Below are positions 7,676 to 40,517 of a stretch of DNA of 64,000 bases, in pieces. The number at the start of each line of letters is the position of its first letter. Within the stretch, counting starts at the first letter, position 1. Where the stretch lies: positions 4,154,001 to 4,218,000 of the forward strand of contig NZ_CP108006.1 of the NCBI RefSeq assembly GCF_036127095.1, written 5' to 3'. The notes beneath the pieces are model-generated. The model saw only the letters and a program-made list of their open reading frames with translations, was not told where the DNA came from and searched no databases. The position numbers and the translations under genes are program-made. The DNA comes from Streptomyces sp. NBC_00335 (GTDB taxonomy: Bacteria > Actinomycetota > Actinomycetes > Streptomycetales > Streptomycetaceae).

Positions 7676-7688
7676 CGCAGGGCTCTCC

Positions 7689-8669: not shown

Positions 8670-8674
8670 GACGG

Positions 8675-10955: not shown

Positions 10956-11033
10956 AATTCGGGACCAACGTCCCCGATGTGCGGGGCGGGATCCTCTTTT
11001 CCGGCAGGGTGTCGGTACCGGACAGTGGATGAC

Positions 11034-11450: not shown

Positions 11451-11480
11451 GCGACCCACCGGGACTTTGGTCCCGAAGCG

Positions 11481-11525
11481 GAACGGCCCGGCGGCCATGT
11501 CGATGACATGGCCGCCGGGCCGTTC
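11481..11525. terminator. bidirectional terminator between convergent genes
   Basis: A 21-bp perfect stem (11481-11501 with 11505-11525) around a GAT loop lies between the stop codons of the flavin protein (+) and the Ser/Thr kinase (-), so it can end transcripts from both sides. Confidence 0.8.
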
Positions 11526-11541
11526 TCGTACCTCGGGACGA

Positions 11542-13158: not shown

Positions 13159-13418
13159 CAGTCCTCACCGTCGTCTGTCTCGGCCGCCGCTCAGCGGTAG
13201 TCCTCATCGTGTGCTCCGACGAACGCTACAGCCTCGCAACCGGTCATTGTTCGGGTGACGACGCCCGCGGTCGACGACGCGTACCGCCTGTGGACCCCTT
13301 GTGGCCTTGTGGTCACGGAACGGGAACCCGGCTTGACGTGTGCTTGCCCTCCGGCAGACTGAGGCCGACATGCGCTCAGCCAGAGGCGTAGGGACACACC
13401 CGAGGGGAAGCAACAGTC

Positions 13419-25946: not shown

Positions 25947-27314
25947 CTACAGGCTGCGCAGCAGCACCGACGGCGACTCGACGCAGTCGGCGACGTACCG
26001 CAGGAACCCACCCGCGGTCCCGCCGTCACACACCCGGTGATCGAAGGTCAGCGACAGCTGAACGACCTGGCGGACCGCCAACTCCCCCTGGTGCACCCAC
26101 GGCTTCGGAATGATCCGCCCCACACCGAGCATCGCCGCCTCAGGATGGTTGATGATCGGCGTGGACCCGTCGACCCCGAACACCCCGTAGTTGTTCAGGG
26201 TGAAGGTGCCACCGGTGAGATCCGCCGGGGCCAGCTTCCCCGCCCGGGCCAGCTCCGTGAGCCGGGCGAACTCGGCCGACAGCGACTCCGCACTGCGCGC
26301 CTGCGCGTCCCGGACCACCGGAACCATCAGCCCCCGCTCGGTCTGCGCCGCGAAGCCCAGGTTCACGGCCGGCAGCCGGACGATCTCGTTCGCCGCGAGG
26401 TCCACCGTGGAGTTGAGCTCCGGGTGGCGGGCCAGCGCCGCCGTGCAGATGCGGGCGAGCAGCGCGAGCACCGAGATCTTGGGCCCGCCCGCGGCGTTCA
26501 TCGCCGCCCGGGCCGCCATCAGCTCGGTGGCGTCCGCGTCGACCCAGCAGGTGGCGTCCGGGATCTCGCGCCGGCTGCGCGACAGCTTGTCCGCGACCGC
26601 GCCGCGCACCCCCTTGAGGGGGATCCGCGTGGCACCCTCCGACACGGCGGAGGCGACGACGGGGGCCGCAGCCACCGGTGCCTGCTCCGGTGCGCGCAGC
26701 GCCGTCTCGACGTCCGCGCGCAGGATCAGCCCCTCGGGACCCGAGCCGCGCAGACCGCGCAGGTCGACCCCGTGGTCCCGGGCCAGCTTGCGCACCAGCG
26801 GCGAGATGACCGGCACGGGCCCGGCGACGACGGCCGGTGCGGTGGCCGCCGGTGCCGCGACGGCGGGTGCCGCGACGGCACCCGCGCCCACCGGGGCCAC
26901 GGCCGAAGCCCGCCACCCGGGAGCGGCCCCCGGCGCGGCGGAGCCGGGTCGCACCCGCCTCCGACGCGCCGGACGTGATTCGTCGGAGCCGTAACCGATC
27001 AAGGGCCGGGGCGCGCTCGCGGAGTCCGGGGTCCCCTCGGGGCCGAGGGCATCGGACGGCACGCTCACCGCGCCCACCGCCACCGTGATCAGCGGGGCGC
27101 CGACGGGCAGTTCGGTCCCCTCCTCGCCGAAGCGGGCGGTGACGACGCCCCCGTACGGGCAGGGCACCTCCACCATCGCCTTGGCCGTCTCGACCTCGAC
27201 GACGGGCTGGTCGATGGCGACGACGTCGCCGACGGCCACCAGCCAGCGGACGATCTCCGCCTCGGTGAGCCCCTCGCCCAGGTCCGGCAGCTTGAACTCC
27301 ATGACCTGCGGCAT
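25947..27314 (-). CDS. bkdH: branched-chain 2-oxoacid dehydrogenase E2, second complex
   Basis: 455-residue dihydrolipoyl acyltransferase, the length of S. avermitilis BkdH. Domains: lipoyl (about 1-80, lysine in EVETAKAMVE), Arg-rich and Ala/Pro linkers, peripheral-subunit-binding (VRKLARDHGVDLRGLRGSG), then the acyltransferase with active-site LTFDHRVCDGG. The ATG shares one base with the E1beta stop codon (TGATG). Last gene of the bkdFGH operon. No lipoamide dehydrogenase gene is nearby, so a shared E3 must come from elsewhere in the genome. Confidence 0.92.
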   Translation of the reverse strand: MPQVMEFKLPDLGEGLTEAEIVRWLVAVGDVVAIDQPVVEVETAKAMVEVPCPYGGVVTARFGEEGTELPVGAPLITVAVGAVSVPSDALGPEGTPDSASAPRPLIGYGSDESRPARRRRVRPGSAAPGAAPGWRASAVAPVGAGAVAAPAVAAPAATAPAVVAGPVPVISPLVRKLARDHGVDLRGLRGSGPEGLILRADVETALRAPEQAPVAAAPVVASAVSEGATRIPLKGVRGAVADKLSRSRREIPDATCWVDADATELMAARAAMNAAGGPKISVLALLARICTAALARHPELNSTVDLAANEIVRLPAVNLGFAAQTERGLMVPVVRDAQARSAESLSAEFARLTELARAGKLAPADLTGGTFTLNNYGVFGVDGSTPIINHPEAAMLGVGRIIPKPWVHQGELAVRQVVQLSLTFDHRVCDGGTAGGFLRYVADCVESPSVLLRSL

Positions 27315-28327
27315 CAGTTCTCCCACTGCAGACGGGCCACGGTGTCCAGGATCCGGTCCACGCCGGGCAGGTGGTACTTCTCCAGCATGGGCGGCGGATA
27401 CGGGATGTCGAAGCCGGTGACGCGCAGCACGGGCGCCTCCAGGTGGTGGAAGCACCGCTCCGTGATCCGGGCGGCGATCTCCGCGCCCGGTCCGCCGAAG
27501 CCGCCGGACTCGTGGACCACCACCGCACGCCCGGTCCGGCGTACGGAGGCCACGACGGTCTCCTCGTCGAAGGGGACCAGCGAGCGCAGGTCCACGACCT
27601 CCAGGTCCCAGCCCTCCTCGCGGGCCGCCTCGGCCGCCTCCATGCACACCGGCAGGGAGGGCCCGTAGGTGATCAGGGTCGCGCTGGTGCCGGTCCGCCG
27701 GACGAGCGCCTCGCCGATCCCGGGGACCGCCGCGGGCGCCTCGGGCGACCAGTCGGACTTGGACCAGTACAGCCGCTTCGGCTCCAGGAAGATCACCGGG
27801 TCGTCGCTGGCTATCGAGGCGCGCAGCAGTCCGTACGCGTCCTCGACGGTCGCCGGGGTCACGACGGTGAGGCCGGGGGTGGCCACGTAGTACGCCTCGG
27901 AGGAGTCGCAGTGGTGCTCCACGCCGCCGATCCCGCCGCCGTACGGCACCCGGATCGTGATCGGGAGCGGCATCGCGCCCCGCGTGCGGTTGCGCATCTT
28001 CGCCACGTGCGAGATCAGCTGCTCGAAGGCCGGGTACGCGAACGCGTCGAACTGCATCTCCACGACCGGCCGCAGCCCGTACATGGCCATGCCGACGGCC
28101 GCGCCGAGTATGCCGGCCTCGGCCAGCGGGGTGTCCGTACAGCGGTCCTCGCCGAACTCCTTCGCGAGGCCGTCCGTGATGCGGAAGACCCCGCCGAGCG
28201 CGCCGACGTCCTCGCCCATGACGTGGACGGTCGGGTCCTCGGCCATCGCGTCGCGCATCGCCCGGTTCAGGGCCTGCGCCATGGTCGCCGGCTTGGTGGT
28301 CGCCGGCTTCACCGCCACGGTGGTCAT
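27314..28327 (-). CDS. bkdG: branched-chain 2-oxoacid dehydrogenase E1 beta, second complex
   Basis: 337-residue E1beta subunit with the same landmarks as BkdB (MGEDVGALGGVFRITDGLA, DTPLAEAGILGAAVGMAMYG, EMQFDAFAYPAFEQLI, GGVEHHCDSSEAYY, APVLRVTGFDIPYPPPM). Its ATG overlaps the E1alpha stop by 4 bp (ATGA), giving tight coupling. The substrate-contact loop differs from BkdB (CDSSE against SESPE), which could reflect a different 2-oxoacid preference. Confidence 0.92.
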   Translation of the reverse strand: MTTVAVKPATTKPATMAQALNRAMRDAMAEDPTVHVMGEDVGALGGVFRITDGLAKEFGEDRCTDTPLAEAGILGAAVGMAMYGLRPVVEMQFDAFAYPAFEQLISHVAKMRNRTRGAMPLPITIRVPYGGGIGGVEHHCDSSEAYYVATPGLTVVTPATVEDAYGLLRASIASDDPVIFLEPKRLYWSKSDWSPEAPAAVPGIGEALVRRTGTSATLITYGPSLPVCMEAAEAAREEGWDLEVVDLRSLVPFDEETVVASVRRTGRAVVVHESGGFGGPGAEIAARITERCFHHLEAPVLRVTGFDIPYPPPMLEKYHLPGVDRILDTVARLQWEN

Positions 28328-29475
28328 GATCCGTCCCCCTCTTCCTGCTCGGCCGCGTCCAGCTCGGCACGGAGCATGGCCGCCTGTTCGCGCAGCCGGC
28401 CGGTCTGCTGCGCGTAGACGTTTTCGAAGAGGTCCATCGGGTCGATCACCGGCTCCGCGTTCATCCCGTCCCTCAGCGCCGCCGCCATCGCCTCGGCCGC
28501 GTCCTTGGCGGCCTTGATGCCCGCCTCGTCCAGCAGGCCGCGCGCGGTCAGCTCGCGCTCCAGCAGATCGATGGGGTCGTGCGCCTTCCAGGCCTCGACC
28601 TCGGCGTCGCCCCGGTAGCGGGTGGCGTCGTCGGCGTTGGTGTGGGCCTCGATGCGGTACGTGACGGCCTCGATCATGGTCGGTCCGCCGCCGGACCGGG
28701 CCCGCCGGACCGCCTCGGACAGCACCTCGTGCATGGCGGCGATGTCGTTGCCGTCGACGAGGCGGCCGGGCATCCCGTACCCCACGGCCTTGTGGGCCAG
28801 GGTCGGGGCGGCGGTCTGCTTGGCGAGCGGCACCGATATCGCGAAGCCGTTGTTCTGCACGAGGAAGACGACCGGCGCCTGCCAGACGGCGGCGAAGTTC
28901 ATGGCCTCGTGGAAATCGCCCTCGCTGGTGCCGCCGTCGCCGACCATGGCGAGGGCGACCACGTCGTCACCGCGCAGCCGGGCGGCGTGCGCCAGGCCGA
29001 CCGCGTGCGGCAGCTGGGTGGCGAGGGGCGTCGAGAGGGGCGCTATCCGGTGCTCGCGCGGGTCGTACCCGGTGTGCCAGTCGCCGCGCAGCAGCGTCAG
29101 GGCCTGTACGGGATCCAGTCCGCGCGCCACGGCCGCGAGGGTGTCACGGTAGCTCGGGAAGAGCCAGTCCTGCTCCTCCAGGACCATGGCTGCGGCGATC
29201 TCGCACGCCTCCTGGCCGACGGTGGAGGGATATACGGCCAGACGGCCCTGCCGGGTGAGGGCGGTGGCCTGGGCGTTGTAGCGGCGGCCGCGCACCAGCT
29301 CGGCGTAGCACCGGCGCATCAGCTCGGGGTCGAGCCGGTCGGCGGCCGGGGTGCCCAGCACCCGGTACGGCTCGGGGTCCGGGAGCAGCGGGGCGGCATC
29401 CGTACGGGGCCTCCAGGCGGGCGGCGGGGTGGAGCGGTGGGACGCACCGGCACCGGGCAGCTCTTGGACCGTCAT
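28324..29475 (-). CDS. bkdF: branched-chain 2-oxoacid dehydrogenase E1 alpha, second complex
   Basis: 383-residue TPP-dependent E1alpha. The TPP motif is MVGDGGTSEGDFHEAMNFAA ending FLVQNNGF. Also visible are FPSYRDTLAA, LRGDWHTGYDPREHR and TYRIEAHTNADDATRYRGD. These features and the PPPAW / RVLG N-terminal part match S. avermitilis BkdF as I remember it. ATG 29475 has GAGGAGGTG 9 bp upstream. First gene of bkdFGH; the promoter region carries an ACCG-N6-CGGT inverted repeat shared with the paa genes. Divergent AsnC regulator at 29653. Confidence 0.93.
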   Translation of the reverse strand: MTVQELPGAGASHRSTPPPAWRPRTDAAPLLPDPEPYRVLGTPAADRLDPELMRRCYAELVRGRRYNAQATALTRQGRLAVYPSTVGQEACEIAAAMVLEEQDWLFPSYRDTLAAVARGLDPVQALTLLRGDWHTGYDPREHRIAPLSTPLATQLPHAVGLAHAARLRGDDVVALAMVGDGGTSEGDFHEAMNFAAVWQAPVVFLVQNNGFAISVPLAKQTAAPTLAHKAVGYGMPGRLVDGNDIAAMHEVLSEAVRRARSGGGPTMIEAVTYRIEAHTNADDATRYRGDAEVEAWKAHDPIDLLERELTARGLLDEAGIKAAKDAAEAMAAALRDGMNAEPVIDPMDLFENVYAQQTGRLREQAAMLRAELDAAEQEEGDGS

Positions 29476-29537: not shown

Positions 29538-29552
29538 ACCGATTGTTCGGTT
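29538..29552. promoter_or_regulatory. PaaR-type operator copy upstream of bkdF
   Basis: ACCGA-TTGT-TCGGT followed by T. On the minus strand it lies between a possible -35 (TTGCCC, 29562-29557) and a possible -10 (TAGGTG, 29538-29533) of bkdF. It differs from the paaN/paaA copies at one centre base. Confidence 0.6.
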
Positions 29553-29652
29553 GTCCGGGCAATTTGGCTACAGGCGGCGCCAGGCTGTGGACAAAGTGGC
29601 GTCGACGCCCTGGTATGGGTGCAGGACGTCCAGGAGAGGCAGGCATCGGGCG

Positions 29653-30240
29653 ATGACGGATGAACAAATGGCCGGAGCGGGTTCCGGGGCGGCGACCCCT
29701 GCGGGGGGCGCACTCGGGGGCGCGCCCGTACCGCCGGTAGCCCCAGGACCGGCGACGGCACCGCCCCGCCCCCTCGACCCGATCGACCGGTCGATCGTCC
29801 GGCTGCTCCAGGCGGACGGCCGGGCCTCGATACGCTCCGTCGCCGAGCAGGTCCACGTGTCCCGGGCCAATGCCTACGCCCGGATCAACCGGCTCATCGA
29901 CGACGGGGTGATCCGCGGCTTCACCGCCCGCGTCAACCACGAACGCGCAGGCCAGGGCGCCTCCGCCTACATCACTCTCAAAATCGTCCAGAACTCCTGG
30001 CGCACGGTCCGCGAACAGCTCCGCGAACTCCCCGGCGCCGCCCACATCGCCCTGGTCAGCGGTGATTTCGACGTCCTGCTCCTGGTCCACACCCCGGACA
30101 ACCGCACCCTGCGCGAGCTGGTCCTGACCCGCCTCCAGTCCATCCCGGAGGTCCTCTCCACGCGCACCCTGCTGGTCTTCGAGGAAACGGACCTCCTGTC
30201 CCGCGACCAGACCGCCGGCCCGACGATCAGCGAGGACTAG
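29653..30240 (+). CDS. bkdR: Lrp/AsnC-family regulator (BkdR type)
   Basis: 195-residue Lrp/AsnC transcription factor. After a disordered Gly/Pro/Ala N-terminal extension (about 1-40), an HTH reads LDPIDRSIVRLLQADGRASI and VAEQVHVSRANAYARINRLI. The AsnC effector (RAM) domain follows (ASAYITLKI..., ALVSGDFDVLLLVH). Lrp-type regulators divergent from bkd operons (BkdR in Pseudomonas and Streptomyces) respond to branched-chain amino acids, so bkdFGH is the natural target. It lies 177 bp from bkdF on the opposite strand. Confidence 0.9.
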   Translation: MTDEQMAGAGSGAATPAGGALGGAPVPPVAPGPATAPPRPLDPIDRSIVRLLQADGRASIRSVAEQVHVSRANAYARINRLIDDGVIRGFTARVNHERAGQGASAYITLKIVQNSWRTVREQLRELPGAAHIALVSGDFDVLLLVHTPDNRTLRELVLTRLQSIPEVLSTRTLLVFEETDLLSRDQTAGPTISED

Positions 30241-30244
30241 CCGC

Positions 30245-30781
30245 ATGGCCCGGACCACCCCCGGCCCGCACCCGGATCTCCTCGCGGCGAAGGAGCTCGT
30301 CTACGACCCCTGCGGGTTCATCTGCTCACCGCCGGTCCCCGAAGCCGAGAGCGCCGAGTACGCCGCCCACGCCTTCACCCTCGACGGGCTCGCCGTCCGG
30401 TTCCGCGCAGCCAGGACGACCCCCACCAAGGCCGGCCAGTTCGTCACGCTGTGGCAGCGGTCCCCGGGCGGGCCCATCCGGCCCTTCGACACGGCCGACC
30501 CGGTCGACCTCTTCGTCGTCGCCGCCCGCGACGGCGACCGCACCGGCCAGTTCGTCTTCTCCATGGACGCGCTGCACCGCAACGGTGTCGTATCGGCAGA
30601 CGGGTCCGGCGGGAAAAGGGCGTTCCGCGTCTACCCGCCCTGGGTGGCCGCCCCCAACCGGCAGGCCTCCGCCGCCCAGGCGTGGCAGCTCGACCACTTC
30701 CTGCCCCTGCCCTTGGCCGGGCCCGGGGCCCTGGCCCGCGCCCGCGAGCTCTACCGCCCCCGGGCCGCCCGCGGGGCGTAG
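30245..30781 (+). CDS. MepB family protein
   Basis: 178 residues, 4 bp after bkdR. The segments YAAHAFTLDGLAVRFRAART, TPTKAGQFVTLWQR, GPIRPFDTADPVDLFVVAAR and QFVFSMDAL are diagnostic of the MepB family, named for a gene beside the MepA efflux pump in Staphylococcus. Its biochemical role is unknown. It is soluble, with no membrane segment. Co-transcription with bkdR is likely from the spacing. Convergent with the TetR gene, stops 4 bp apart. Confidence 0.85.
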   Translation: MARTTPGPHPDLLAAKELVYDPCGFICSPPVPEAESAEYAAHAFTLDGLAVRFRAARTTPTKAGQFVTLWQRSPGGPIRPFDTADPVDLFVVAARDGDRTGQFVFSMDALHRNGVVSADGSGGKRAFRVYPPWVAAPNRQASAAQAWQLDHFLPLPLAGPGALARARELYRPRAARGA

Positions 30782-30785
30782 CGGT

Positions 30786-31373
30786 TCACCGCTGGGTGCG
30801 CAGGCCGTCCAGGGCCATGCTGACCACCGCGTCCGCGAGCTGGTCGGGGGTGGTGCCCGGGTGCGGGCGGTACCACTCGACCAGCGAGTTGACCATGCCG
30901 AAGAGGAGGCGGGTGGCGAGGCGGATGTCCACGTCCGCGCGCAGGTCGCCCTCGGCGGCGGCGGCCTTCAGCAGCTCCGCGACCTGGTGGTCGAACTCGC
31001 GGCGGCGCTCCAGGGCCCAGCGCTCGGTGCGGGTGTTGCCCCGGACCCGCAGCAGCAGGGTGACGTAGGGGAGCTCCCGGGCGAGGACCTCGACCGTGCG
31101 GCGCGTGACGTACTCGACGCGTTCGACCGCGCGGCCCCGTATCGCCCCCGGCTCCGCCAGGACCGCGAAGAGCTCGTCCAGGGCCCGGCTGACGGCGCGG
31201 TGGAGCAGCTCCTCCTTGCCGGCGACGTGGTGGTAGATCGAGGACTTCGAGATGCCGGCGGCCTTGGAGAGGTGCTCCATCGAGGTGCCGTCGTAGCCGC
31301 GCTCGTTGAAGACCTGGACGGCGACGGACAGGAGCGTCTCGGGCGTGTACGTGTCCCGCTTGGCCGTGGTCAT
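30786..31373 (-). CDS. paaR: TetR-family regulator, likely PaaR (phenylacetate gene repressor)
   Basis: 195-residue TetR repressor. The HTH is TLLSVAVQVFNERGYDGTSM then LSKAAGISKSSIYHHVAGKE; the rest is an all-helical ligand-binding domain. Its ATG overlaps the paaH stop by 4 bp (ATGA), so it is in the paaH transcript. The matching inverted repeats ACCG-N6-CGGT before paaH/paaN and paaA are its expected operators, and the TetR regulator PaaR of Corynebacterium binds a motif of this type as I recall. The likely ligand is phenylacetyl-CoA. The symbol is an inference from context. Confidence 0.75.
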   Translation of the reverse strand: MTTAKRDTYTPETLLSVAVQVFNERGYDGTSMEHLSKAAGISKSSIYHHVAGKEELLHRAVSRALDELFAVLAEPGAIRGRAVERVEYVTRRTVEVLARELPYVTLLLRVRGNTRTERWALERRREFDHQVAELLKAAAAEGDLRADVDIRLATRLLFGMVNSLVEWYRPHPGTTPDQLADAVVSMALDGLRTQR

Positions 31374-32920
31374 TCCGACTCCCCCGCCTCGTCGTCGGCG
31401 CCCTCTGCGTCCTCTGCGTCCTCGTCGGCCCCCGCCGCGTAGCCCAGCTTGTACAGCGCCAGCGACGGCGCGTACCGGCCGCCGGGGCAGCGCTCGTCGA
31501 GGTGGTGCAGCAGGTCGTACGCCCAGTCGCGGCCGAGCTTGTCGTGCCATTCGGCGGGGCCCGCCGGGTAGTTGACCCCGAGCCGCATCGCCGTGTCGAT
31601 GTCCTCGGCGCCCGCCACCCCGCGCGCGACGGCGTCGGCGGTGAGGTCGATCAGCATCGCGACCGTCCGGGCGACGATCATGCCCGGGACGTCGCCGATG
31701 ACGGAGACCTTCTTGCCGAGCTTCTGGAACAGCCCGACGGCCTCGGCGACCGTCCGCTCGCTGGTGTCCTCGCTGACGGAGAGCGCGATCCGGGTGGCGC
31801 CGCGGTAGTCGAAGGCGAGGTCGAAGTAGACGACGTCGGCGAACTCGATCGCCGTCTTGCCGTCGGCGAGCACGAGCTGCCCCTCGCCGGGGAGCTGGAT
31901 GTACGGGCCCCCGTGCTCGACGGCCGTGACCGCGATCCCGGCCTCCTCCAGGAGGTCGAGGAGGCCCGCCGCCGGTCCGAGGTCACCGACGACGGTCACC
32001 TTCGCGGGCGCCTCCTCGGGGCCCGCGGTGTGCGGGGCCGCGACCTTCGCGTCGGGGCCGTACGGGTACCAGCCGTGGCCCGACTTGCGGCCCAGGCGGC
32101 CCGACTGGACCAGCCGGCGCTGCGCGAGGGAGGGGGTGAACTTGGGGCTACGGAAGAAGGACTCCCACACCGAGCGGGTGACGGCCTCGTTGACGTCCTG
32201 GCCGATCAGGTCGGTCAGCGCGAAGGGACCCATCTTGAAGCCGCCGCTCTCGCGGAGCACGGCGTCGATGGTCGCCGGGTCGGCGCCCTGCTCCTCGTAC
32301 ACCGCGAAGGCCTCGGCGTAGAAGGGCCGGGCGATCCGGTTGACGATGAAGCCCGGGGTGTCGGCGCAGCGCACCGGCGTCTTCCCCCAGCCCAGGACGG
32401 TGGCGTACGCGCGGTTCGCGGCGGCGGGGTCCGTCGCGAACCCGGAGACCACCTCGACCAGCGGGAGCAGCGGAGCCGGATTGAAGAAGTGAAGGCCCAG
32501 GAAGCGGCCGGGGTGCGCGAGTCCGGCGGCGAGCTCGGTGACCGAGAGGGAGGAGGTGTTGGTGGCCAGCAGCGCCTCCGGCGAAACCACCTCTTCGAGG
32601 GCCGCGAACAGGGCCCGCTTGACGGTGACGTCCTCGACGACCGCCTCCACCACGAGCGCCGCGCCGGCCAGCTCCGCCAGCCCGGCCGCCGATGCGATCC
32701 GGCCGATCGCGTCCTCGGCCTCGGCGCGGTCCAGCCGCCCCTTGGCGGCCATCCGCTCGACGCGGTCCTGGACGAATCCGACCGCGTCCGCGGCGAGCGG
32801 GGCGTTGATGTCGTAGATCAGCACGCGGTGACCTGCGAGAAGGGCGACTTGGGCGATGCCCTGCCCCATGGTGCCGGCGCCGACGACCGCCACTGTGCGG
32901 GACCGCTCGATTGCTGTCAT
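31370..32920 (-). CDS. paaH: 3-hydroxyacyl-CoA dehydrogenase (PaaH/PaaC type)
   Basis: 516-residue NAD-dependent 3-hydroxyacyl-CoA dehydrogenase. N-terminal Rossmann fold VAVVGAGTMGQGIAQVALLA, catalytic-site region FFNPAPLLPLVEVVSG and DTPGFIVNRIARPF, a first C-terminal domain (GFKMGPFALTDLIGQDVN), then a degenerate second copy of the C-terminal domain (about 290-505; GLGRKSGHGWYPYG, PGMIVARTVAMLIDLTADAV, LGVNYPAGPAEWHDKLG), as in PaaH enzymes of the phenylacetate pathway, which oxidise 3-hydroxyadipyl-CoA. The acidic tail (GADEDAEDAEGADDEAGE) is unusual. Divergent from paaN across a shared operator. Confidence 0.88.
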   Translation of the reverse strand: MTAIERSRTVAVVGAGTMGQGIAQVALLAGHRVLIYDINAPLAADAVGFVQDRVERMAAKGRLDRAEAEDAIGRIASAAGLAELAGAALVVEAVVEDVTVKRALFAALEEVVSPEALLATNTSSLSVTELAAGLAHPGRFLGLHFFNPAPLLPLVEVVSGFATDPAAANRAYATVLGWGKTPVRCADTPGFIVNRIARPFYAEAFAVYEEQGADPATIDAVLRESGGFKMGPFALTDLIGQDVNEAVTRSVWESFFRSPKFTPSLAQRRLVQSGRLGRKSGHGWYPYGPDAKVAAPHTAGPEEAPAKVTVVGDLGPAAGLLDLLEEAGIAVTAVEHGGPYIQLPGEGQLVLADGKTAIEFADVVYFDLAFDYRGATRIALSVSEDTSERTVAEAVGLFQKLGKKVSVIGDVPGMIVARTVAMLIDLTADAVARGVAGAEDIDTAMRLGVNYPAGPAEWHDKLGRDWAYDLLHHLDERCPGGRYAPSLALYKLGYAAGADEDAEDAEGADDEAGESE

Positions 32921-32967
32921 GCCCAGATCCTCCCGCACCGACTTGTCCACAGGTCTGCCGGGCCCTC

Positions 32968-32995
32968 TTGTCCCGACCGATCGTTCGGTTACTCT
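32968..32995. promoter_or_regulatory. paaN promoter with PaaR-type operator between -35 and -10
   Basis: TTGTCC (32968-32973), 16 bp, TACTCT (32990-32995). The spacer is the operator GACCGATCGTTCGGTT (32975-32990), whose exact reverse complement occurs before paaA at 37852-37867. A repressor bound here would block paaN and could also block the divergent paaH. Confidence 0.7.
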
Positions 32996-33077
32996 AACTC
33001 CAGTCTGCTCTTGTTCATCCCTTCTTGCCTGCCCCGATCGCCTGATCCCGCCCGGCTCAAAGAGGAGTTGGTCCCTG

Positions 33078-34760
33078 ATGGCCGCCGAGCTCACCGTCCC
33101 CCAGCTGTCCGCCAAGCACCGGCCCACCCTGGACCAGGCGCTGGCCACGATCCGCAGCCGCGCCTACTGGTCCCCGCACCCCGAGCACCCCAAGGCGTAC
33201 GGGGAGACCGCGCCGGCCGACGGCCTCGCCGCCTTCGAGGCGCTGCGCGGCACCCGGCTCGACCTCGGGCAGCCCGGCACCGACGGCTGGACGGGCGCGG
33301 AGACCTCCCCCTACGGCGTGGAGCTCGGCGTCGAGTACCCGCACGTGGACCCGGAGGTGCTGCTGCCCGCGATGCGGGCCGGCATGGGCGCCTGGCGCGA
33401 TGCCGGGCCCGAGGCGCGCGCCCTGGTCTGCATCGAGATCCTGGCCCGGATCTCGGCGCGGACGCACGAGTTCGCGCACGCCGTCATGCACACCAGCGGC
33501 CAGGCCTTCATGATGGCGTTCCAGGCGGGCGGCCCGCACGCACAGGACCGCGGCCTGGAGGCGGTGGCCTACGCGTACGAGGAGCAGACCCGCGTCCCCG
33601 GGCAGGCCGACTGGTCGAAGCCGCAGGGCAAGAAGGACCCGCTGGAGCTGGGCAAGACCTTCACGGCCGTGCCGCGCGGCATCTCCCTGATGATCGGCTG
33701 CAACACCTTCCCCACCTGGAACGGCTACCCGGGCATCTTCGCCTCCCTGGCCACAGGCAACCCGGTGCTGGTCAAGCCGCACCCGCGCGCCGTCCTCCCG
33801 CTGGCGCTGACCGTCCAGGTCGCCCGCGAGGTCCTCGCCGACGCCGGCTTCGACCCGAACCTGGTCGCGCTGGCCGTGGAGCGTCCGGGCGAGGGCATCG
33901 CCAAGGAACTCGCCGTCCGCCCCGAGATCAAGGTCATCGACTACACCGGGTCCACCGAGTTCGGTGACTGGCTGGAGACCAACGCCCGTCAGGCGCAGGT
34001 CTACACGGAGAAGGCCGGCGTCAACACCGTCGTCCTGGACTCCACCGACAACTACAAGGGGATGCTGTCCAACCTGGCGTTCTCCCTGTCCCTCTACAGC
34101 GGCCAGATGTGCACCACCCCGCAGAACCTGCTGATCCCGCGCGACGGCATCGAGACCGACGCCGGGCACAAGTCCTACGACGAGGTCGTCTCCGACCTCG
34201 CGGGCGCGGTCGGCGGCCTGCTCGGCGACGACGCGCGGGCCAACGCCCTGCTCGGCGCACTGGTCAACCCGGACGTGAAGGCCCGCCTGGAGGCCGCGGC
34301 CGGGCTCGGCGAGGTCGCGCTGGCCTCGCGCGAGGTGGCGAACCCGGAGTTCCCGGGCGCGGTCGTGCGCACCCCGGTGATGGTGAAGCTGGACTCGTCC
34401 AAGCCGGACGACTCCGCCCCCTACCTCTCCGAGTGCTTCGGCCCGGTCTCCTTCGCGGTGGCGGTCGACTCCACGGCGGACGCCCTCGAACTGCTGCGGC
34501 GCACCGTCCGCGAGAAGGGCGCCATGACGGTCGGGGCGTACACCACGTCCGCGGACACCGAGCGGGCCATCGAGGAGGTCTGCCTGGAGGAGTCGGCGCA
34601 GCTCTCGCTGAACCTGACGGGCGGGGTCTATGTGAACCAGACCGCGGCCTTCTCCGACTTCCACGGCTCCGGCGGCAACCCGGCGGCGAACGCCGCGCTG
34701 TGCGACGGCGCGTTCGTGTCGAACCGCTTCCGCGTGGTGGAGGTCCGCCGCCAGGGCTAG
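33078..34760 (+). CDS. paaN: phenylacetic acid degradation protein PaaN (aldehyde dehydrogenase fold)
   Basis: 560-residue aldehyde-dehydrogenase-superfamily protein of the PaaN group found in actinobacteria, thought to handle the ring-opened aldehyde in phenylacetate breakdown. The ALDH catalytic cysteine lies in SLYSGQMCTTPQNLLIP. NAD-site segments include GCNTFPTWNGYPGIFASLAT and GNPVLVKPHP. The start ATG has AGAGGAG 11 bp upstream. Unlike the fused PaaZ of E. coli there is no hydratase (MaoC) domain. The gene ends tail-to-tail with the RNA methyltransferase; both stop codons share CTAG at 34757-34760. Confidence 0.88.
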   Translation: MAAELTVPQLSAKHRPTLDQALATIRSRAYWSPHPEHPKAYGETAPADGLAAFEALRGTRLDLGQPGTDGWTGAETSPYGVELGVEYPHVDPEVLLPAMRAGMGAWRDAGPEARALVCIEILARISARTHEFAHAVMHTSGQAFMMAFQAGGPHAQDRGLEAVAYAYEEQTRVPGQADWSKPQGKKDPLELGKTFTAVPRGISLMIGCNTFPTWNGYPGIFASLATGNPVLVKPHPRAVLPLALTVQVAREVLADAGFDPNLVALAVERPGEGIAKELAVRPEIKVIDYTGSTEFGDWLETNARQAQVYTEKAGVNTVVLDSTDNYKGMLSNLAFSLSLYSGQMCTTPQNLLIPRDGIETDAGHKSYDEVVSDLAGAVGGLLGDDARANALLGALVNPDVKARLEAAAGLGEVALASREVANPEFPGAVVRTPVMVKLDSSKPDDSAPYLSECFGPVSFAVAVDSTADALELLRRTVREKGAMTVGAYTTSADTERAIEEVCLEESAQLSLNLTGGVYVNQTAAFSDFHGSGGNPAANAALCDGAFVSNRFRVVEVRRQG

Positions 34761-35530
34761 GCCTTCTCCTTCGGCCCACCCCAGTGGAAGAGGGTCATGG
34801 CCACGCTGGTGGCCAGGTTGTAGCTGGAGACCTGCGGGCGCATCGGCAGGGACACCAGGTGATCGGCGCGGGCGCGCAGCTCGGGCGAGATGCCGTGGCG
34901 TTCGGAGCCGAAGGCGAGCAGGCCCTCGTCCGGGAGGGTGAGGGCGCGGATGTCCTCGCCCTCCGGGTCGAGGGCGTACAGCGGGCCGGGCGGCAGCGTG
35001 CCGAGCTCCACCCGGTCCACGGTGGTGGCGTAGTGCAGGCCCGCGCCGGCCCGGACCACGTTGGGGTGCCAGGGATCCAGATCCCCCCGGGTGACCACGC
35101 CGGTGGCGCCGAAGCCGGCGGCGAGCCGGACGACGGCGCCTACGTTGCCCAGGTTGCGCGGGTTGTCGAGGAGCACGATCGGGGCCGTCCTGGGCCGTGC
35201 GTCGAGCCGGGCCCGTCCCTCGGCCCGCCCGGGCCGCACCGCGAGGGCCGCCACCCCGGTGGGGTGCACCCGCGCCACCAGCCCCTTGAGCGGCGCCCGC
35301 CGCACCAGCCGGGCGACGTCCGCCTCCACGTCCTGCGCCAACTCGCGCGCGAGCCCCCGTACGGCGTCCGGATCCTCGGCGACGACCAGCCGAACGTCCG
35401 CCCCGAACCGCAGGGCGTGCTTCAGCGCATGAAACCCGTCGAGAAGAACAAGATCTTCCCGCTCGACACCCTCCCGCCACTCCCGCTCGGTGTCCTCGAT
35501 GCCGCCGGGGCCCCCATGCTGCTCACTCAT
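34757..35530 (-). CDS. TrmH/SpoU-family RNA methyltransferase
   Basis: 257-residue SPOUT methyltransferase for 2'-O-methylation of tRNA or rRNA. A short N-terminal substrate-binding part (REDLVLLDGFHALKHALRFG) precedes the knotted catalytic domain: motif 1 VLLDNPRNLGNVGAVVRLAA, motif 2 LLAFGSERHGISPEL, motif 3 LPMRPQVSSYNLATSVAMTL. The usual SLNVSVA reads SYNLATSVA, a mild variation. Stand-alone gene. The TAG stop overlaps the paaN stop on the other strand by 3 bp. Confidence 0.88.
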   Translation of the reverse strand: MSEQHGGPGGIEDTEREWREGVEREDLVLLDGFHALKHALRFGADVRLVVAEDPDAVRGLARELAQDVEADVARLVRRAPLKGLVARVHPTGVAALAVRPGRAEGRARLDARPRTAPIVLLDNPRNLGNVGAVVRLAAGFGATGVVTRGDLDPWHPNVVRAGAGLHYATTVDRVELGTLPPGPLYALDPEGEDIRALTLPDEGLLAFGSERHGISPELRARADHLVSLPMRPQVSSYNLATSVAMTLFHWGGPKEKA

Positions 35531-35566
35531 ACCGCCGACCCTACGGCTCCGGTCCCGCCGACCAAA

Positions 35567-35815
35567 TCCAGCCCGTCCGGCGCTTGAGGACCGGGGTCCG
35601 GGGCGGAGCCCGGCACCCCCTCCAACCCATCCGGCGCTTGAGGACCGGGACCCGGAGCGGAGCCCGGCACCCCCTCCAACCCGTCCGGCGCTTGAGGACC
35701 GGGACCCGGGGCGCAGCCCGGCACCCCCTCCAGCCCGTCCGGCGCTTGAGGACCGGGGTCCGGGCAGCGCCCGGGGAACGGGCGAAGGGCGGGTAGGGGA
35801 CTTCGCCCCGCAGGG
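35567..35815 (+). repeat. 54-bp tandem repeat array (four units), locus 3 of the GC-rich family
   Basis: Units start at 35567, 35621, 35675 and 35729, exactly 54 bp apart. Each carries TCCAnCCnTCCGGCGCTTGA, GGACCGGG and an AGCCCGGCACCCCC end. The fourth runs into the same tail (GGGGAACGGGCGAAGGGCGG, GGGGACTTCGCCCCGC) seen at loci 1 and 2. The array fills nearly all of the 295-bp gap upstream of the methyltransferase and downstream of the HTTM gene. Confidence 0.9.
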
Positions 35816-35825
35816 CAGCCGGGCC

Positions 35826-37073
35826 TCAGCGCGGAACGGGACTGGGGAGCGCCGGCTCCGGCTCCGCGGAGGGATCCGGATCCGGCCCCGGCTCCGGAAC
35901 GGACCGCCAGACACCCACCCGCCGCGCAGCGACCCACGCACCGAGCCACACCAGAAACCCGGTCGGCAAGAACACCGCGTCAGCGGCGATCATCGCCAAC
36001 GAGAAGAACGGCAGCCCCAGCAACACCGCGATCCCCGCATGCTCCAGCATCATCAACGCCAGCAGCACGTTCTTGATCCGCCGGTTGAACAGCGTGAACG
36101 GAAAGGCCACCTGGACCGCGACCGTCCCGTAGGACAGCAGCATGACCAGCGTCCCGCTGCTCGCGAGGAAGGCCGAGACCCCGGGCCACGGGGTGAAGTA
36201 GTCCAGGTTCAGCGGGTAGTACAGCGCCGTGCCGTCCTGCCACCGCGAGCCCTGGATCTTGTACCACCCGGCCGTCGCGTAGATCAGGCAGACCTCCACC
36301 ATGATCACCAGCATCCCGGCGTTGTGCAGCAGGTTGGCCAGGACGTCGAGGACCGCCCGCCCCTCCCCCTCCGGCTCGTAGCGGTCGACCATCCACCACA
36401 GCGCGGCGAGCACCCACAGGGCCGTGAAGACCACCAGCCAGCCGGTGCTCAGCCGCCCGGTCGCGGCCCCGTACGCGAACACCGCGCCGAGCACCCCCCA
36501 CAGCACCGGCCCCGCCCGCCCGGCCGAGGCCGCGCCGAGGCGCCGTGCGCGGCGGGCGTCCAGCGACCACACCTGGGCGCAGCGGGTCAGCACGAGGTAG
36601 ATCGCCATCAGGTGGATGACGTTGTCCCCGCCGTCGCCCATGAAGACGCTGCGGTTCTGCAGGGACAGCACGCCGACCGCGAAGACCACGGAGGTCGCCC
36701 GGGTGCGCCAGCCCAGCATCAGCAGGGCGGACGCCAGCACGGCCACGGCGTAGACGATCTCGAACCAGAGCGCCGAGTCCGACCACATCAGCACCGTGAA
36801 GGCACGGTTCGAGTCGATCAGCTGCCGCGCCAGCTCCCAGCTCCACGGCCCGTCCGGCCCGTACAGCTCCTGGCGGTGCGGGAACTCGCGCAGCAGGAAG
36901 AACAGCCAGGTGCCGGCGAAGCCGATGCGGACCACGGCGCTCTGGTACGGACCCAGCGCCTGCCCGCTGACCCGGGCGACCGCCCGGCCGGCGGAGGCTT
37001 TGAGCCCCCGCACACCGGGCCCCTTCACACCGGGCTCCCGCACACCGGGCTCCCGCACACCGGCCCCACTCAC
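35826..37073 (-). CDS. HTTM-domain (vitamin-K-dependent gamma-carboxylase-like) membrane protein
   Basis: 415-residue polytopic membrane protein with the HTTM fold shared by gamma-glutamyl carboxylases and SdpB of Bacillus. Characteristic parts: AVVRIGFAGTWLFFLLREFP, FMGDGGDNVIHLMAIYLVLT, EVCLIYATAGWYKIQGSRWQDGTAL, YYPLNLDYFTPWP. About eight or nine helices. It starts at GTG 37073, overlapping the stop of the DUF5819 gene by 4 bp. The first 20 residues are a repeat (GVREPGVREPGVKGPG) encoded by a CACACCGGGCTCCCG DNA repeat. Always paired with a DUF5819 protein; the joint role is unknown. Confidence 0.83.
   Translation of the reverse strand: MSGAGVREPGVREPGVKGPGVRGLKASAGRAVARVSGQALGPYQSAVVRIGFAGTWLFFLLREFPHRQELYGPDGPWSWELARQLIDSNRAFTVLMWSDSALWFEIVYAVAVLASALLMLGWRTRATSVVFAVGVLSLQNRSVFMGDGGDNVIHLMAIYLVLTRCAQVWSLDARRARRLGAASAGRAGPVLWGVLGAVFAYGAATGRLSTGWLVVFTALWVLAALWWMVDRYEPEGEGRAVLDVLANLLHNAGMLVIMVEVCLIYATAGWYKIQGSRWQDGTALYYPLNLDYFTPWPGVSAFLASSGTLVMLLSYGTVAVQVAFPFTLFNRRIKNVLLALMMLEHAGIAVLLGLPFFSLAMIAADAVFLPTGFLVWLGAWVAARRVGVWRSVPEPGPDPDPSAEPEPALPSPVPR
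37022..37062 (-). repeat. 15-bp tandem repeat at the 5' end of the HTTM gene
   Basis: About 2.7 copies of a CACACCGGGCTCCCG-like unit encode GVREP-type pentapeptides just after the GTG start. It keeps the reading frame whatever the copy number. Confidence 0.7.
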
Positions 37074-37768
37074 ACCGTCCACCACGGCAGCTCCCGGTAG
37101 TACGTCTGGGTGTCGGCCTTCTCGTCGGACCACTCGGGCGCCGCGACCTCCGTCGTCGCCCCGCGCAGCTGGATCCGCACGATCCGTCCCTCGGCCAGGT
37201 GCCCGCCCTTGCCCACCGACGTATCGGCCGGCGTGCGCGGGTCCAGCCGGTCCAGGGCGATCCGGCGCAGGTACTGCTCGGAGAGTTCGCCGCGCTCGCC
37301 GGTGGACTTGTTGTCCTCGTCGTGGGAGTTGGTGAAGAAGTCCCAGGCCCGGCGGAGCTCGTTCTGCTCGGTGTGGCTCGGCAGCAGGCTGTGGCGGATG
37401 GCCGCGCCGTCCTCGGCGGAGAGCCCGCGCCAGTTGCCCGTCACCAGCAGGCCCTCGTCCGTCCGCACCTGCGCGCGGACCTCCACGGCGATGTTCTGCT
37501 GGAGCGGGTTGGGGGCGAAGAGCTTCCAGTTCTGTTCGAACTCGGGGTAGACCCAGCCGTCGATCACGCCCGCGTGCCGCTTGCTGACCGTGTTTGACGG
37601 GGCCACGTGCAGGAAGACGAGGGCCAGGTGCGAGCAGGCGGCCACCGCCACCGCGCCGAGCGCGAGGGCCGTGACGACCCGGTACGGCTTGGACAGGCCG
37701 GCGATTCCGGGCGCCCTGGGAGGGTGTGGAGCCTCACCTTCCGGGGGCTCGTGCTCGTTCGAATCCAT
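37070..37768 (-). CDS. DUF5819-family membrane-anchored protein
   Basis: 232 residues. A disordered N-terminus (DSNEHEPPEGEAPHPP) precedes a single transmembrane helix (VVTALALGAVAVAACSHLAL); the remainder lies outside the cytoplasm. Conserved features are EFEQNWKLFAPNPLQQNIAV and a C-terminal beta-rich part. The WKLFAPNP motif is the mark of DUF5819. It is the first gene of the pair with the HTTM protein and may present or receive a substrate of that enzyme-like partner. The promoter faces paaA, so the 145-bp gap is shared. Confidence 0.82.
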   Translation of the reverse strand: MDSNEHEPPEGEAPHPPRAPGIAGLSKPYRVVTALALGAVAVAACSHLALVFLHVAPSNTVSKRHAGVIDGWVYPEFEQNWKLFAPNPLQQNIAVEVRAQVRTDEGLLVTGNWRGLSAEDGAAIRHSLLPSHTEQNELRRAWDFFTNSHDEDNKSTGERGELSEQYLRRIALDRLDPRTPADTSVGKGGHLAEGRIVRIQLRGATTEVAAPEWSDEKADTQTYYRELPWWTV

Positions 37769-37851
37769 CCCGCCCCGATCATCCGGTGTCCACAGGGTTG
37801 ACCACAGAGGTTGACACCCTACGGGCCCTCGTCCCACCATTGAAGAGTACG

Positions 37852-37867
37852 AACCGAACGATCGGTC
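37852..37867. promoter_or_regulatory. PaaR-type operator upstream of paaA
   Basis: AACCGAACGATCGGTC, the exact reverse complement of 32975-32990. A TTGACA hexamer at 37811-37816 with a weak CACCAT 18 bp downstream lies just before it, so a bound repressor would block elongation or initiation of paaABCDE. The site is 47 bp before the paaA start. Confidence 0.7.
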
Positions 37868-37913
37868 GGTCGGGCGGCACGAGGCGGGAAAAGACCTCTG
37901 ACAGGGGGCCGTG

Positions 37914-38963
37914 ATGGTGGCAGTGACCCCGGCAGCGACATCGGGGACCGGGGGGCGGGACGCCGGGCAGGACGCGGGGATCGGCGTGACCGCCGACCTC
38001 GGCGCGCAGCTCGCGGCGGCATTCGACGCGGCCGTGGCGGCCGACGAGCGGGTGGAGCCGCGCGACTGGATGCCCGACGAATACCGCGCCACCCTGGTCC
38101 GCCAGATGGCCCAGCACGCCCACTCCGAGATCATCGGCATGCAGCCCGAGGCGAACTGGATCACCCGCGCGCCCTCCCTGCGCCGCAAGGCGATCCTGAT
38201 GGCGAAGGTCCAGGACGAGGCCGGGCACGGCCTGTACCTGTACAGCGCCGCCGAGACGCTGGGCACCAGCCGCGACGAGCTCCTCGACAAGCTCCACGCC
38301 GGGAAGCAGAAGTACTCCTCGATCTTCAACTACCCCACGCTGACCTGGGCCGACGTCGGCGCGATCGGCTGGCTCGTGGACGGCGCGGCGATCACCAACC
38401 AGGTGCCGATCTGCCGCTGCTCCTACGGGCCGTACGCGCGGGCCATGGTCCGGATCTGCAAGGAGGAGTCCTTCCACCAGCGCCAGGGGTACGAGCTGCT
38501 CCTCGCCCTCTCCCGGGGCACCGAGGCCCAGCACGCGATGGCGCAGGACGCCGTCGACCGCTGGTGGTGGCCCTCGCTGATGATGTTCGGCCCGCCCGAC
38601 GCCGAGTCGGGGCACTCCGCGCAGTCGATGGCATGGCGGATCAAGCGCCACTCCAACGACGAGCTGCGCCAGCGCTTCGTGGACATCGCCGTGCCGCAGG
38701 CCGAGTCGCTGGGTCTGACCCTGCCCGACCCGGACCTGAAGTGGAACGAGGAGCGCGGGCACCACGACTTCGGAGCCATCGACTGGACGGAGTTCTGGGA
38801 GGTGCTCAAGGGCAACGGCCCGTGCAACGAAGACCGGATCGGACAGCGCCGCGCGGCGCACGAGGAAGGCGCCTGGGTGCGCGACGCGGCCGCGGCGTAT
38901 GCGGAGAAGCAGGCGGCGGCCACAGCCGCCGCGGCGACCATCGGAAGCGAGGCTCGGGTATGA
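37914..38963 (+). CDS. paaA: phenylacetyl-CoA 1,2-epoxidase catalytic subunit PaaA
   Basis: 349-residue di-iron oxygenase subunit that epoxidises the ring of phenylacetyl-CoA. Carboxylate-bridged iron ligands appear in [22 protein letters not shown] (ExxH) and [16 protein letters not shown] (ExxH). Also typical are [20 protein letters not shown] and WKWNEE-like [16 protein letters not shown] 37914 (AGGGGG 5 bp before) or the GTG 3 bp earlier or later may be used. First gene of paaABCDE, every junction overlapping by 4 bp or abutting. Confidence 0.93.
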
Positions 38964-39244
38964 CGCAGAACTGGCCCCTGTGGGAGGTGTTCGTCCGCTC
39001 GCGGCGCGGCCTCTCGCACACGCACGCGGGCAGCCTGCACGCCCCCGACGCGGAGATGGCCCTGCGCAACGCCCGCGATCTCTACACCCGGCGCGGCGAG
39101 GGCATCTCCATCTGGGTGGTGCCCTCCACGGAGATCACCGCCTCCTCCCCGGACGAGCGGGACCCGTTCTTCGCCCCGTCCGCCGACAAGCCCTACCGGC
39201 ACCCCACCTTCTACGAGATCCCCGAGGGGGTGCAGCACCTGTGA
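38960..39244 (+). CDS. paaB: phenylacetyl-CoA epoxidase subunit PaaB
   Basis: 94-residue small subunit that bridges the PaaAC complexes. [22 protein letters not shown] and the [20 protein letters not shown] motif are diagnostic. ATGA overlap with paaA. Confidence 0.93.
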
Positions 39245-39996
39245 CGAGCACCGAGACGAGCAACGCATCAGGGACGGCCACGGTGGCGGCGGCCCTGGCC
39301 CTCGGCGACGACGCGCTGATCCTTTCGCACCGCCTCGCCGAGTGGGCGGGCCACGCGCCCGTCCTGGAGGAGGAGGTCGCGCTCGCCAACATCGCCCTCG
39401 ACCTGCTCGGCCAGGCTCGTGTCCTGCTGTCGACGGCCGGAGACGAGGACGAGCTGGCCTACCTCCGTGAGGAGCGGTCCTTCCGCAACCTCCAGCTGGT
39501 CGAGCAGCCGAACGGCGACTTCGCCCACACCATCGCGCGCCAGCTCTACTTCTCGCTCTACCAGCACGAGCTCTACGGGGAACTCGCGCTCGGCGACGGC
39601 CCGTTCGCGCCGCTCGCCGCCAAGGCGGTCAAGGAGACCGCCTACCACCGCGACCACGCCGAGCAGTGGACGCTGCGGCTCGGCGACGGCACCGAGGAGA
39701 GCCGGCGCCGCATGCGGGCCGGCCTGGACGGGCTGTGGAAGTACACCGGGGAGATGTTCCGGCCGGTGGACGGGCTCGACGGGGTCGGCGGGATCGACTG
39801 GGCCGCGCTGGAAGGCCGCTGGCTGGCCGCGCTGGGCGGCGTACTGGAGCGGGCCGGACTGGAGCTGCCCGAGGGACCGCGGCACGGCGCCTGGGCCGCG
39901 GGAGCCGGCCGGCAGGGACTGCACACCGAGTCGTTCGGCCGCCTGCTCGCGGAGATGCAGCACCTGCACCGCAGCCACCCGGGGGCATCGTGGTGA
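39241..39996 (+). CDS. paaC: phenylacetyl-CoA epoxidase structural subunit PaaC
   Basis: 251-residue ferritin-like non-catalytic partner of PaaA. LILSHRLAEWAGHAPVLEEE and VALANIALDLLGQARVLL, then FRNLQLVEQPNGDFAHTIARQ and KETAYHRDHAEQW are all canonical. It starts at GTG 39241 overlapping paaB by 4 bp. It lacks a full set of iron ligands, as usual for PaaC. Confidence 0.93.
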   Translation: MTSTETSNASGTATVAAALALGDDALILSHRLAEWAGHAPVLEEEVALANIALDLLGQARVLLSTAGDEDELAYLREERSFRNLQLVEQPNGDFAHTIARQLYFSLYQHELYGELALGDGPFAPLAAKAVKETAYHRDHAEQWTLRLGDGTEESRRRMRAGLDGLWKYTGEMFRPVDGLDGVGGIDWAALEGRWLAALGGVLERAGLELPEGPRHGAWAAGAGRQGLHTESFGRLLAEMQHLHRSHPGASW

Positions 39997-40517
39997 CCGG
40001 CACCAGTGCCGGCGCGGGCACCGGCACCGACAGGACCCGGCTGGAGGTGGAGCTGGCCGCGCTGGCCGGCTCCGTCCCCGACCCCGAACTGCCCGTGATC
40101 ACCCTCTCCGAGCTCGGCGTGATGCGCGGGGTGCGGATGCACGAGGACGGCCACGTGGAGGTCACCCTGACCCCCACCTACACCGGCTGCCCGGCCATCG
40201 AGGCCATGTCCGCCGACATCGAGCGGATCCTGACCGACCACGGCATACCCGAGGTCCGGGTCCGCACCGTGCTGGCCCCCGCCTGGTCCACCGACGACAT
40301 CAGCGCCGAAGGCCGCCGCAAGCTGGCCGAGTTCGGCATCGCCCCGCCGCGGCCGCACGCCGCCGGCGGACCGGTTCCGCTCACCCTGTCCGTCCGCTGC
40401 CCCAACTGCGGATCGACCGACACCGAGCTGCTCAGCCGGTTCTCCTCCACCGCATGCAAGGCGCTGCGCCGCTGCACCGCCTGCCGCGAACCGTTCGACC
40501 ACTTCAAGGAGCTGTAG
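39993..40517 (+). CDS. paaD: phenylacetyl-CoA epoxidase maturation protein PaaD
   Basis: 174-residue DUF59/MIP18-type iron-sulfur maturation factor for the epoxidase. The N-terminal part reads VPDPELPVITLSELGVMRGV and LTPTYTGCPAIEAMSADIER (conserved Cys). A C-terminal zinc ribbon has CPNCGSTDTELLSRFSSTAC and CTACREPFDHFKEL. It starts at GTG 39993 overlapping paaC by 4 bp. Confidence 0.92.
   Translation: MTGTSAGAGTGTDRTRLEVELAALAGSVPDPELPVITLSELGVMRGVRMHEDGHVEVTLTPTYTGCPAIEAMSADIERILTDHGIPEVRVRTVLAPAWSTDDISAEGRRKLAEFGIAPPRPHAAGGPVPLTLSVRCPNCGSTDTELLSRFSSTACKALRRCTACREPFDHFKEL

Follow-up and report, generated by a model that had tools for sequence, protein, structure and literature searches.

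Why should the operon of a branched-chain 2-oxo acid dehydrogenase carry the same palindrome as the genes for phenylacetate breakdown? This question is raised by the bkdFGH genes of Streptomyces sp. NBC_00335 (assembly GCF_036127095.1), which lie together with paaN, paaH and paaABCDE in the stretch analysed here, 64,000 nucleotides of contig NZ_CP108006.1 (positions 4,154,001 to 4,218,000; hereafter the window). An earlier note on this DNA had drawn attention to an inverted repeat shared by the three gene groups, and to a TetR-family gene in the paaH operon as the source of its binder. Judging from operator sequence and conservation, we consider it very probable that bkdFGH is under the control of PaaR. 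The PaaR-type site before bkdFGH, which is found in Streptomyces as well as in its sister genera, suggests that the 'branched-chain' complex has a second task, the delivery of carbon from phenylalanine to phenylacetate breakdown.

PaaR-type palindromes at bkdF and at the paa genes

The sites in question are the following (window coordinates, strand, description):

29538..29551, minus: PaaR-type operator before bkdF, ACCGAACAATCGGT in the direction of bkdF; pattern match and conservation in relatives
32976..32989, plus: PaaR-type operator between paaN (plus) and paaH-paaR (minus), within the spacer of TTGTCC-N16-TACTCT
37853..37866, minus: PaaR-type operator before paaABCDE; pattern match and conservation
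37857..37870, plus: second, overlapping operator copy at paaA, AACGATCGGTCGGT, which fits the putative S. pristinaespiralis PaaR site AACGA-N4-TCGGT

The pattern ACCGNNNGTTCGGT has three exact matches in the window, at 29538-29551 (plus), 32976-32989 (plus) and 37853-37866 (minus). Since 0.01 matches are expected in the shuffled window, and three were reached in 0 of 100 shuffles, a chance origin of these sites is ruled out. The 16-mer GACCGATCGTTCGGTT stands at 32975-32990 and recurs as its exact reverse complement at 37852-37867, as the earlier note had it. Pattern matching also confirmed its one-base variant before bkdF: the bkdF copy differs from the paa copies by one base over the 14-mer, and by two over the 16-mer. 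Across all 9.0 Mb of the genome there are eight matches to the loose pattern ACCGNNNGTTCGGT, and the ACCGATY form occurs only in the three window sites. A fourth target lies outside the window, where ACCGAATGATCGGT is located 87 base pairs (bp) before the paaK match (G000:C1:7742167-7743423; G, C and L numbers are our handles for genomes, contigs and loci). Common to the four sites at bkdF, paaN/paaH, paaA and paaK is ACCGA-N4-TCGGT. The second dehydrogenase operon of the window, bkdABC, serves as an internal control; a pattern scan of the window revealed no such operator there.

The paaA promoter (37853-37870) contains two overlapping palindromes, ACCGAACGATCGGT and AACGATCGGTCGGT, offset by four bases, which perhaps leaves room for two repressor dimers. 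Doubled sites with one imperfect copy also precede paaA elsewhere (L246, L247, L257).

Which protein would bind these sites? The nearest solved chain to the TetR protein is SCO3833 of S. coelicolor (PDB 2IAI, E 2.2e-89). As the bkdFGH-bkdR genes of that species are SCO3829-SCO3832 (PMC12323332, PMC13033682), the locus is the standard Streptomyces locus. The TetR gene adjoins paaH and paaN. A reporter-tested PaaR operator of Burkholderia cenocepacia is ACCGACCGGTCGGTT (PMC9493321), and all four sites of the source genome share ACCGA-N4-TCGGT with it; for S. pristinaespiralis the putative PaaR site is AACGA-N4-TCGGT (PMC10933834). Phenylacetyl-coenzyme A (phenylacetyl-CoA) is the PaaR effector in B. 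cenocepacia and Thermus thermophilus (PMC9493321). We compared 80 named Streptomyces loci, which are the best TetR protein matches and thus near relatives in a sample conditioned on TetR. In 25 of them the TetR gene begins 68-103 bp downstream of the middle site, an arrangement that would suit a repressor controlling its own gene. The TetR protein of the paaH operon is very probably PaaR. The operator match, the sites before its own gene and the joint absence of regulator and intact site in one relative (G158, see below) support the earlier choice of this protein as the predicted binder.

The genes of the locus are:

25947..27323, minus: bkdH, E2 acyltransferase
27314..28327, minus: bkdG, E1 beta
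28324..29475, minus: bkdF, E1 alpha of a 2-oxo acid dehydrogenase, 383 amino acids
29653..30240, plus: bkdR, Lrp/AsnC-type regulator, divergent from bkdF
30245..30781, plus: gene for a MepB-like protein
30786..31373, minus: TetR-family regulator, probable paaR (closest solved chain SCO3833, 2IAI)
31370..32920, minus: paaH, 3-hydroxyacyl-CoA dehydrogenase (PaaH model 577.8 bits, below its cut-off of 669.4; PRK08268 above)
33078..34760, plus: paaN (TIGR02288, above cut-off)
37911..41699, plus: paaABCDE (A, C, D and E by Pfam, B from gene order)
6224..9655, minus: bkdABC, second branched-chain dehydrogenase (39%, 57% and 42% identical to BkdH, BkdG and BkdF)

Family searches bear out the gene identities given before, i.e. 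the parts of BkdFGH, the Lrp-type and TetR regulators, the PaaH-type protein, paaN and paaA, C, D and E. The names bkdFGH and bkdR are our assumption from gene order. E1 alpha, E1 beta and E2 are encoded together with an Lrp-type bkdR, the arrangement of a branched-chain 2-oxo acid dehydrogenase. The NCBIfam name of the E1 alpha is pyruvate dehydrogenase (TIGR03181, above cut-off), and the sequence therefore leaves the substrate of BkdFGH undecided. bkdABC is located about 19 kb from bkdFGH; several relatives also have a second E1 alpha 15-18 kb away.

Conservation of the bkdF site in Streptomycetaceae

The earlier note had proposed conservation of the site upstream of bkdF in relatives as a test, and we ran it within Streptomyces and in the other genera of the family. 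The pattern ACCGAYYGTTCGGT is present in 147 of 150 Streptomyces genomes, whereas a reversed control pattern gave three matches in all; ACCGATTGTTCGGT occurs once in each of the 50 Streptomyces genomes listed. Two ACCGATC sites and one ACCGATT site are found in 73 of the 80 Streptomyces loci, and each of the remaining seven, in which the contig ends within the stretch, has two. The ACCGATT form is seen in 79 of the 80, the exception (L020) being a locus that stops before bkdF. Accordingly, the bkdF site is identical in 79/79 loci that reach the gene. It is also kept in G088, where bkdF lies about 15 kb from paaR.

Among 51 family genomes outside Streptomyces, 46 have strong paaA/paaC matches and 43 a TetR match (E <= 1e-40; 64 candidates scored per genome in most, all 45 in G158 and 64 of 226 in G178). 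All 43 fall among the 46, i.e. the TetR protein is encoded in genomes with paa genes. In every one of the 41 genomes with the TetR gene and a bkdF at least 63% identical, the bkdF site is the same. For 38 of these the upstream DNA was extracted, and all carry ACCGAACAATCGGT; in G167, G182 and G186 the same 14-mer was placed before bkdF by its coordinates. G010, whose bkdF upstream region reads N, was not counted. An alignment of 41 sequences (the 38 extracted, the window and two from Streptomyces) revealed a fixed 14-mer, while the 60 columns upstream and downstream average 59% and 49% identity. An inherited non-functional stretch is ruled out by this pattern, as the flanks drift and only five flanking columns reach 97.5%. 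In the same sister-genus genomes the paaA and paaN sites vary (ACCGAATGATCGGT, ACCGACCATTCGGT, ACCGAACGGTCGGT). Separation from bkd and paaR does not cost paaA its site (L220-L223); in G174 the paaA site has one mismatch (L224).

In one genome the regulator and the intact site are both missing. G158 has kept bkdF and bkdR, and matches to the TetR protein (all candidates scored) and to paaA/paaC are absent. Where the operator would be expected from its distance to the conserved TRGYC box, the sequence is ACCGAGGATGCTTC, in which one half-site is lost. G184 and G178, with a bkdF of 58-61% identity, have neither a TetR match nor the site, within the candidates scored. The bkdF operator is thus conserved and tracks the regulator, with the exception of G168. 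The earlier proposal that bkdFGH is co-regulated with phenylacetate breakdown is very likely correct in view of this conservation, the PaaR operator match and G158; G168, which lacks the site, does not conform to it.

The proposed bkdF promoter and the regulators that may act on it

Alignment of relatives suggests the following promoter elements:

29542..29547, minus: AACAAT, proposed as the bkdF -10; it falls within the operator and keeps a fixed spacing to the TRGYCR box in 41/41 aligned sequences
29565..29570, minus: proposed -35 TAGCCA (TRGYCR in relatives) of the bkdF promoter

The TRGYCR box stands 17 or 18 bases before AACAAT, which itself lies inside the palindrome. This arrangement fits a bkdF promoter whose -10 would be covered by the repressor, and it could account for a centre of CA, instead of CG, at bkdF. 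The earlier note had placed the site between -35 and -10 at both paaN and bkdF. By eye this holds for paaN, where the site occupies the spacer of TTGTCC-N16-TACTCT; at bkdF the alignment instead places the proposed -10 within the site.

It is important to consider what speaks against PaaR acting at bkdF. In G168 (TetR 63%, bkdF 60% identical) the two genes are side by side with no bkdF site, and G158, a genome that is 93% complete, provides the only clean loss seen. Part of the invariance at the centre of the bkdF site may be due to a -10 element. The source genome has further matches without a tie to paa genes, including five loose ACCGNNNGTTCGGT matches, an exact RACCGANYGWTCGGTY match (AACCGAGCGATCGGTC) at G000:C1:2891000-2891015 (L091) and one-mismatch matches at 1583577 and 7386370. 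No strict site was found by paaN in 4 of 18 paaN-holding loci (G191, G199, G154, G188). MtrA sites have been predicted in the S. coelicolor SCO3831/SCO3832 intergenic region, which matches 29538-29653 (PMC12323332), so that bkdF-bkdR may have more than two regulators. Finally, the site is present in 0/20 bkdF loci outside the family. For this comparison 118 genomes were drawn, 25 had a bkdF match and 19 (20 loci) were examined, leaving out G204, G219, G248, G264, G279 and G286. The best sequences at the 20 loci have 2-4 mismatches of 10, like simple shuffles (lowest shuffle fraction 0.08).

At paaA the picture outside the family is different. Within 1.5 kb flanks in 15 genomes, an exact site was found in four (G230, G237, G269, G295) and a one-mismatch site upstream of paaA in two (G228, G203), with none in the other 9 of 15; this set, like the paaK set below, was hand-picked, partly for holding bkdF. 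Since the site is absent at non-family bkdF loci but found at some non-family paaA genes, bkdFGH seems to have joined the PaaR regulon within Streptomycetaceae. The 20 kb stretches with exact sites in G153, G178:C59 and G162:C35 (L156, L157, L172) hold none of the bkd and paa genes of our set, and these sites are taken as chance. Several near-palindromes of the ACCGAAC type recur at 9904-11544 of L156 (G153:C3), often spaced by multiples of about 138 bases; G153 is without matches to bkdFGH, TetR and paaA/paaC, and the near-palindromes are perhaps a coding repeat.

Could the palindrome belong to another regulator, its likeness to the paa sites being coincidental? A site for the Lrp-family BkdR, or a plain promoter element, would suit its position between bkdF and bkdR, the proposed -10 inside it, and G168, which has bkdR and TetR genes and no site. 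Yet the same palindrome stands before paaA, paaN, paaK and paaR, far from bkdR in several genomes, G158 retains bkdR but not the intact site, and 11 of the 20 non-family bkdF loci, all without the site, have a bkdR hit. Moreover, a promoter leaves the invariant half-sites ACCGA and TCGGT unexplained, and we regard this explanation as very unlikely. Alternatively, PaaR might act on the divergent bkdR promoter and affect bkdFGH indirectly, as the site is intergenic and by eye reads TTGTTC, a possible -35, towards bkdR. The box spacing (TRGYCR-N17/18-AACAAT, 41/41) nevertheless favours bkdF, no good -10 was seen by eye at a matching distance towards bkdR, and this route, too, appears very unlikely.

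A possible supply role for BkdFGH and its relation to known systems

If bkdFGH is under PaaR control, what would the complex contribute? In the mechanism that we propose, the TetR gene of the paaH operon would encode PaaR, and a PaaR dimer would bind each of four copies of a single palindrome, ACCGA-N4-TCGGT. Two of these precede paaABCDE and paaK, one separates paaN from paaH-paaR, and the fourth spans the proposed -10 of bkdFGH. By analogy with published PaaRs, from which the binding is likewise deduced, phenylacetyl-CoA would release the repressor, and bkdFGH would therefore be induced along with phenylacetate breakdown, in addition to being controlled by the Lrp-type BkdR. The likely purpose would be supply. 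Besides branched-chain keto acids, BkdFGH would oxidatively decarboxylate phenylpyruvate to phenylacetyl-CoA, and phenylalanine would thereby gain a direct entry to the Paa route beside PaaK. Supply would be the simplest reason: apart from bkdFGH, every target that could be assigned is a paa gene, the paralogous bkdABC has no site, and in other genomes bkdFGH forms part of, or adjoins, runs of paa genes. Taken as a whole, i.e. PaaR control, release by phenylacetyl-CoA and a role in phenylpyruvate supply, this explanation is reasonably likely. For the production of phenylacetyl-CoA from phenylpyruvate by BkdFGH, judged from gene context only, we see about an even chance. With slightly less confidence, and tentatively, we suggest that in Streptomycetaceae BkdFGH acts to a considerable extent as a phenylpyruvate (aromatic 2-oxo acid) dehydrogenase. 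Under PaaR it would convert phenylpyruvate from phenylalanine directly to phenylacetyl-CoA, a product that would induce as well as feed the Paa route, bypassing free phenylacetate and PaaK.

The gene context comes from several genomes. In G178, a member of the same family, bkdFGH stands at the head of 14 successive frames on one strand, separated by about 100 bp or less (L304, G178:C31:8000-27900, 826-15013). The run starts with bkdF, bkdG, bkdH, paaN, a 3-oxoadipyl-CoA-thiolase-like, a PaaF-like hydratase, a PaaH-like dehydrogenase and a PaaG-like isomerase gene, and it ends with paaA, an unassigned short frame in the place of paaB, paaC, paaD, paaE and paaK. Of the Paa models only PaaN scored above its curated cut-off in this run, with PaaK just below (640.6 of 646.3), and the '-like' names denote lower scores. 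In the Streptomyces genome G037, which has no TetR match, bkdFGH (56-69%) adjoins paaA, C, D and E on one strand, about 0.9 kb apart.

Two other arrangements were observed. A second copy of bkdFGH in G138 is accompanied by a separate bkdR (L300, G138:C43, 5710-13093) and lies beside genes for a PaaN-like aldehyde dehydrogenase and a PRK03321-model aminotransferase, a type that we take to act on aromatic amino acids; no exact PaaR-type site was found at this set. In genus g50 of another family (G237, G269, G295; L239, L240, L242) bkdFGH converges on a long frame that we read, by its first residues, as paaZ, and PaaR-like near-sites lie at the start of that frame.

A different view of the link retains PaaR control and restricts BkdFGH to branched-chain keto acids, so that the signal would concern CoA and carbon balance, as in general amino-acid catabolism, rather than supply. 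It accords with what weighs against a supply role. BkdFGH is known for branched-chain keto acids, as a supplier of branched-chain starters for avermectin and other polyketides, and paaK, itself a source of phenylacetyl-CoA, is in the regulon in most genomes looked at, so that BkdFGH need not be that source. Among 24 paaK matches, a site is located within 240 bp upstream in 13 and within 650 bp in 19. For the six sites at 533-648 bp, however, the target may be a neighbouring gene; in G177 the site belongs to the divergent paaA. The only site in G230 is at -1375, and G152, G178, G168 and G184 have none. Our first thought, that paaK is outside the regulon and replaced by bkdFGH, was ruled out by these sites. 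On the other hand, bkdABC, the other branched-chain complex of the window, is without a site, and in G178 and G037 bkdFGH is found at the head of, or next to, a run of paa genes. We therefore consider a purely branched-chain function of the PaaR-controlled complex possible but rather unlikely.

At an E-value of 1e-60 no paaK match was found in G088, G119, G174 and G037, hand-picked genomes that all have paaA and bkdFGH. If the supply role is correct, the Paa route would be entered mainly through BkdFGH where a close paaK match is lacking (for instance in G088, G119 and G037), and the supply of branched-chain starters for antibiotics and fatty acids would be tied to aromatic catabolism. The route by which Streptomyces feeds phenylalanine into phenylacetyl-CoA catabolism would then have an explanation that can be tested directly, and the retention of two branched-chain complexes in these bacteria would have a possible reason. 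Should bkdFGH answer to phenylacetyl-CoA via PaaR, feeding and engineering results with bkd mutants would have to be reread, and likewise the precursor work on L-phenylglycine (pristinamycin, virginiamycin). A link between PaaR and bkdF was not found in the literature searched, of which coverage was partial, and earlier work may mention the bkdF site. Nor did that literature yield a paper on a phenylpyruvate-to-phenylacetyl-CoA role of a Streptomyces keto acid dehydrogenase.

How does the locus compare with known systems? The bkdFGH/bkdR loci of S. avermitilis and S. coelicolor have the same genes in the same order, with the Lrp-type BkdR divergent from bkdF, and are described as encoding a branched-chain keto acid dehydrogenase under BkdR (PMC8176718, PMC12323332, PMC13033682). 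The parts of these descriptions available to us draw no aromatic link, and 'phenylacet' occurs 0 times in the main text of PMC8176718. PccD of Saccharopolyspora erythraea is likewise a TetR regulator said to directly control a branched-chain dehydrogenase operon (PMC8176718), but it is another regulator with another site, WTGACGSTGYTGW (table in PMC10933834). In the L-phenylglycine pathway, PglB/PglC of S. pristinaespiralis, a pyruvate-dehydrogenase-like E1 pair, is described as turning phenylpyruvate into phenylacetyl-CoA (PMC7089894), the reaction proposed here for BkdFGH; it belongs, however, to an antibiotic gene cluster under PapR2 and not to catabolism under PaaR. The regulator itself resembles PaaR of B. 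cenocepacia, T. thermophilus, Corynebacterium glutamicum and S. pristinaespiralis in that a TetR gene lies within the paa locus, and ACCGA-N4-TCGGT resembles the tested B. cenocepacia operator. Whereas the targets named for those systems, in the source text available, are paa genes, the predicted regulon described here also includes, family-wide, the operon of a 2-oxo acid dehydrogenase.

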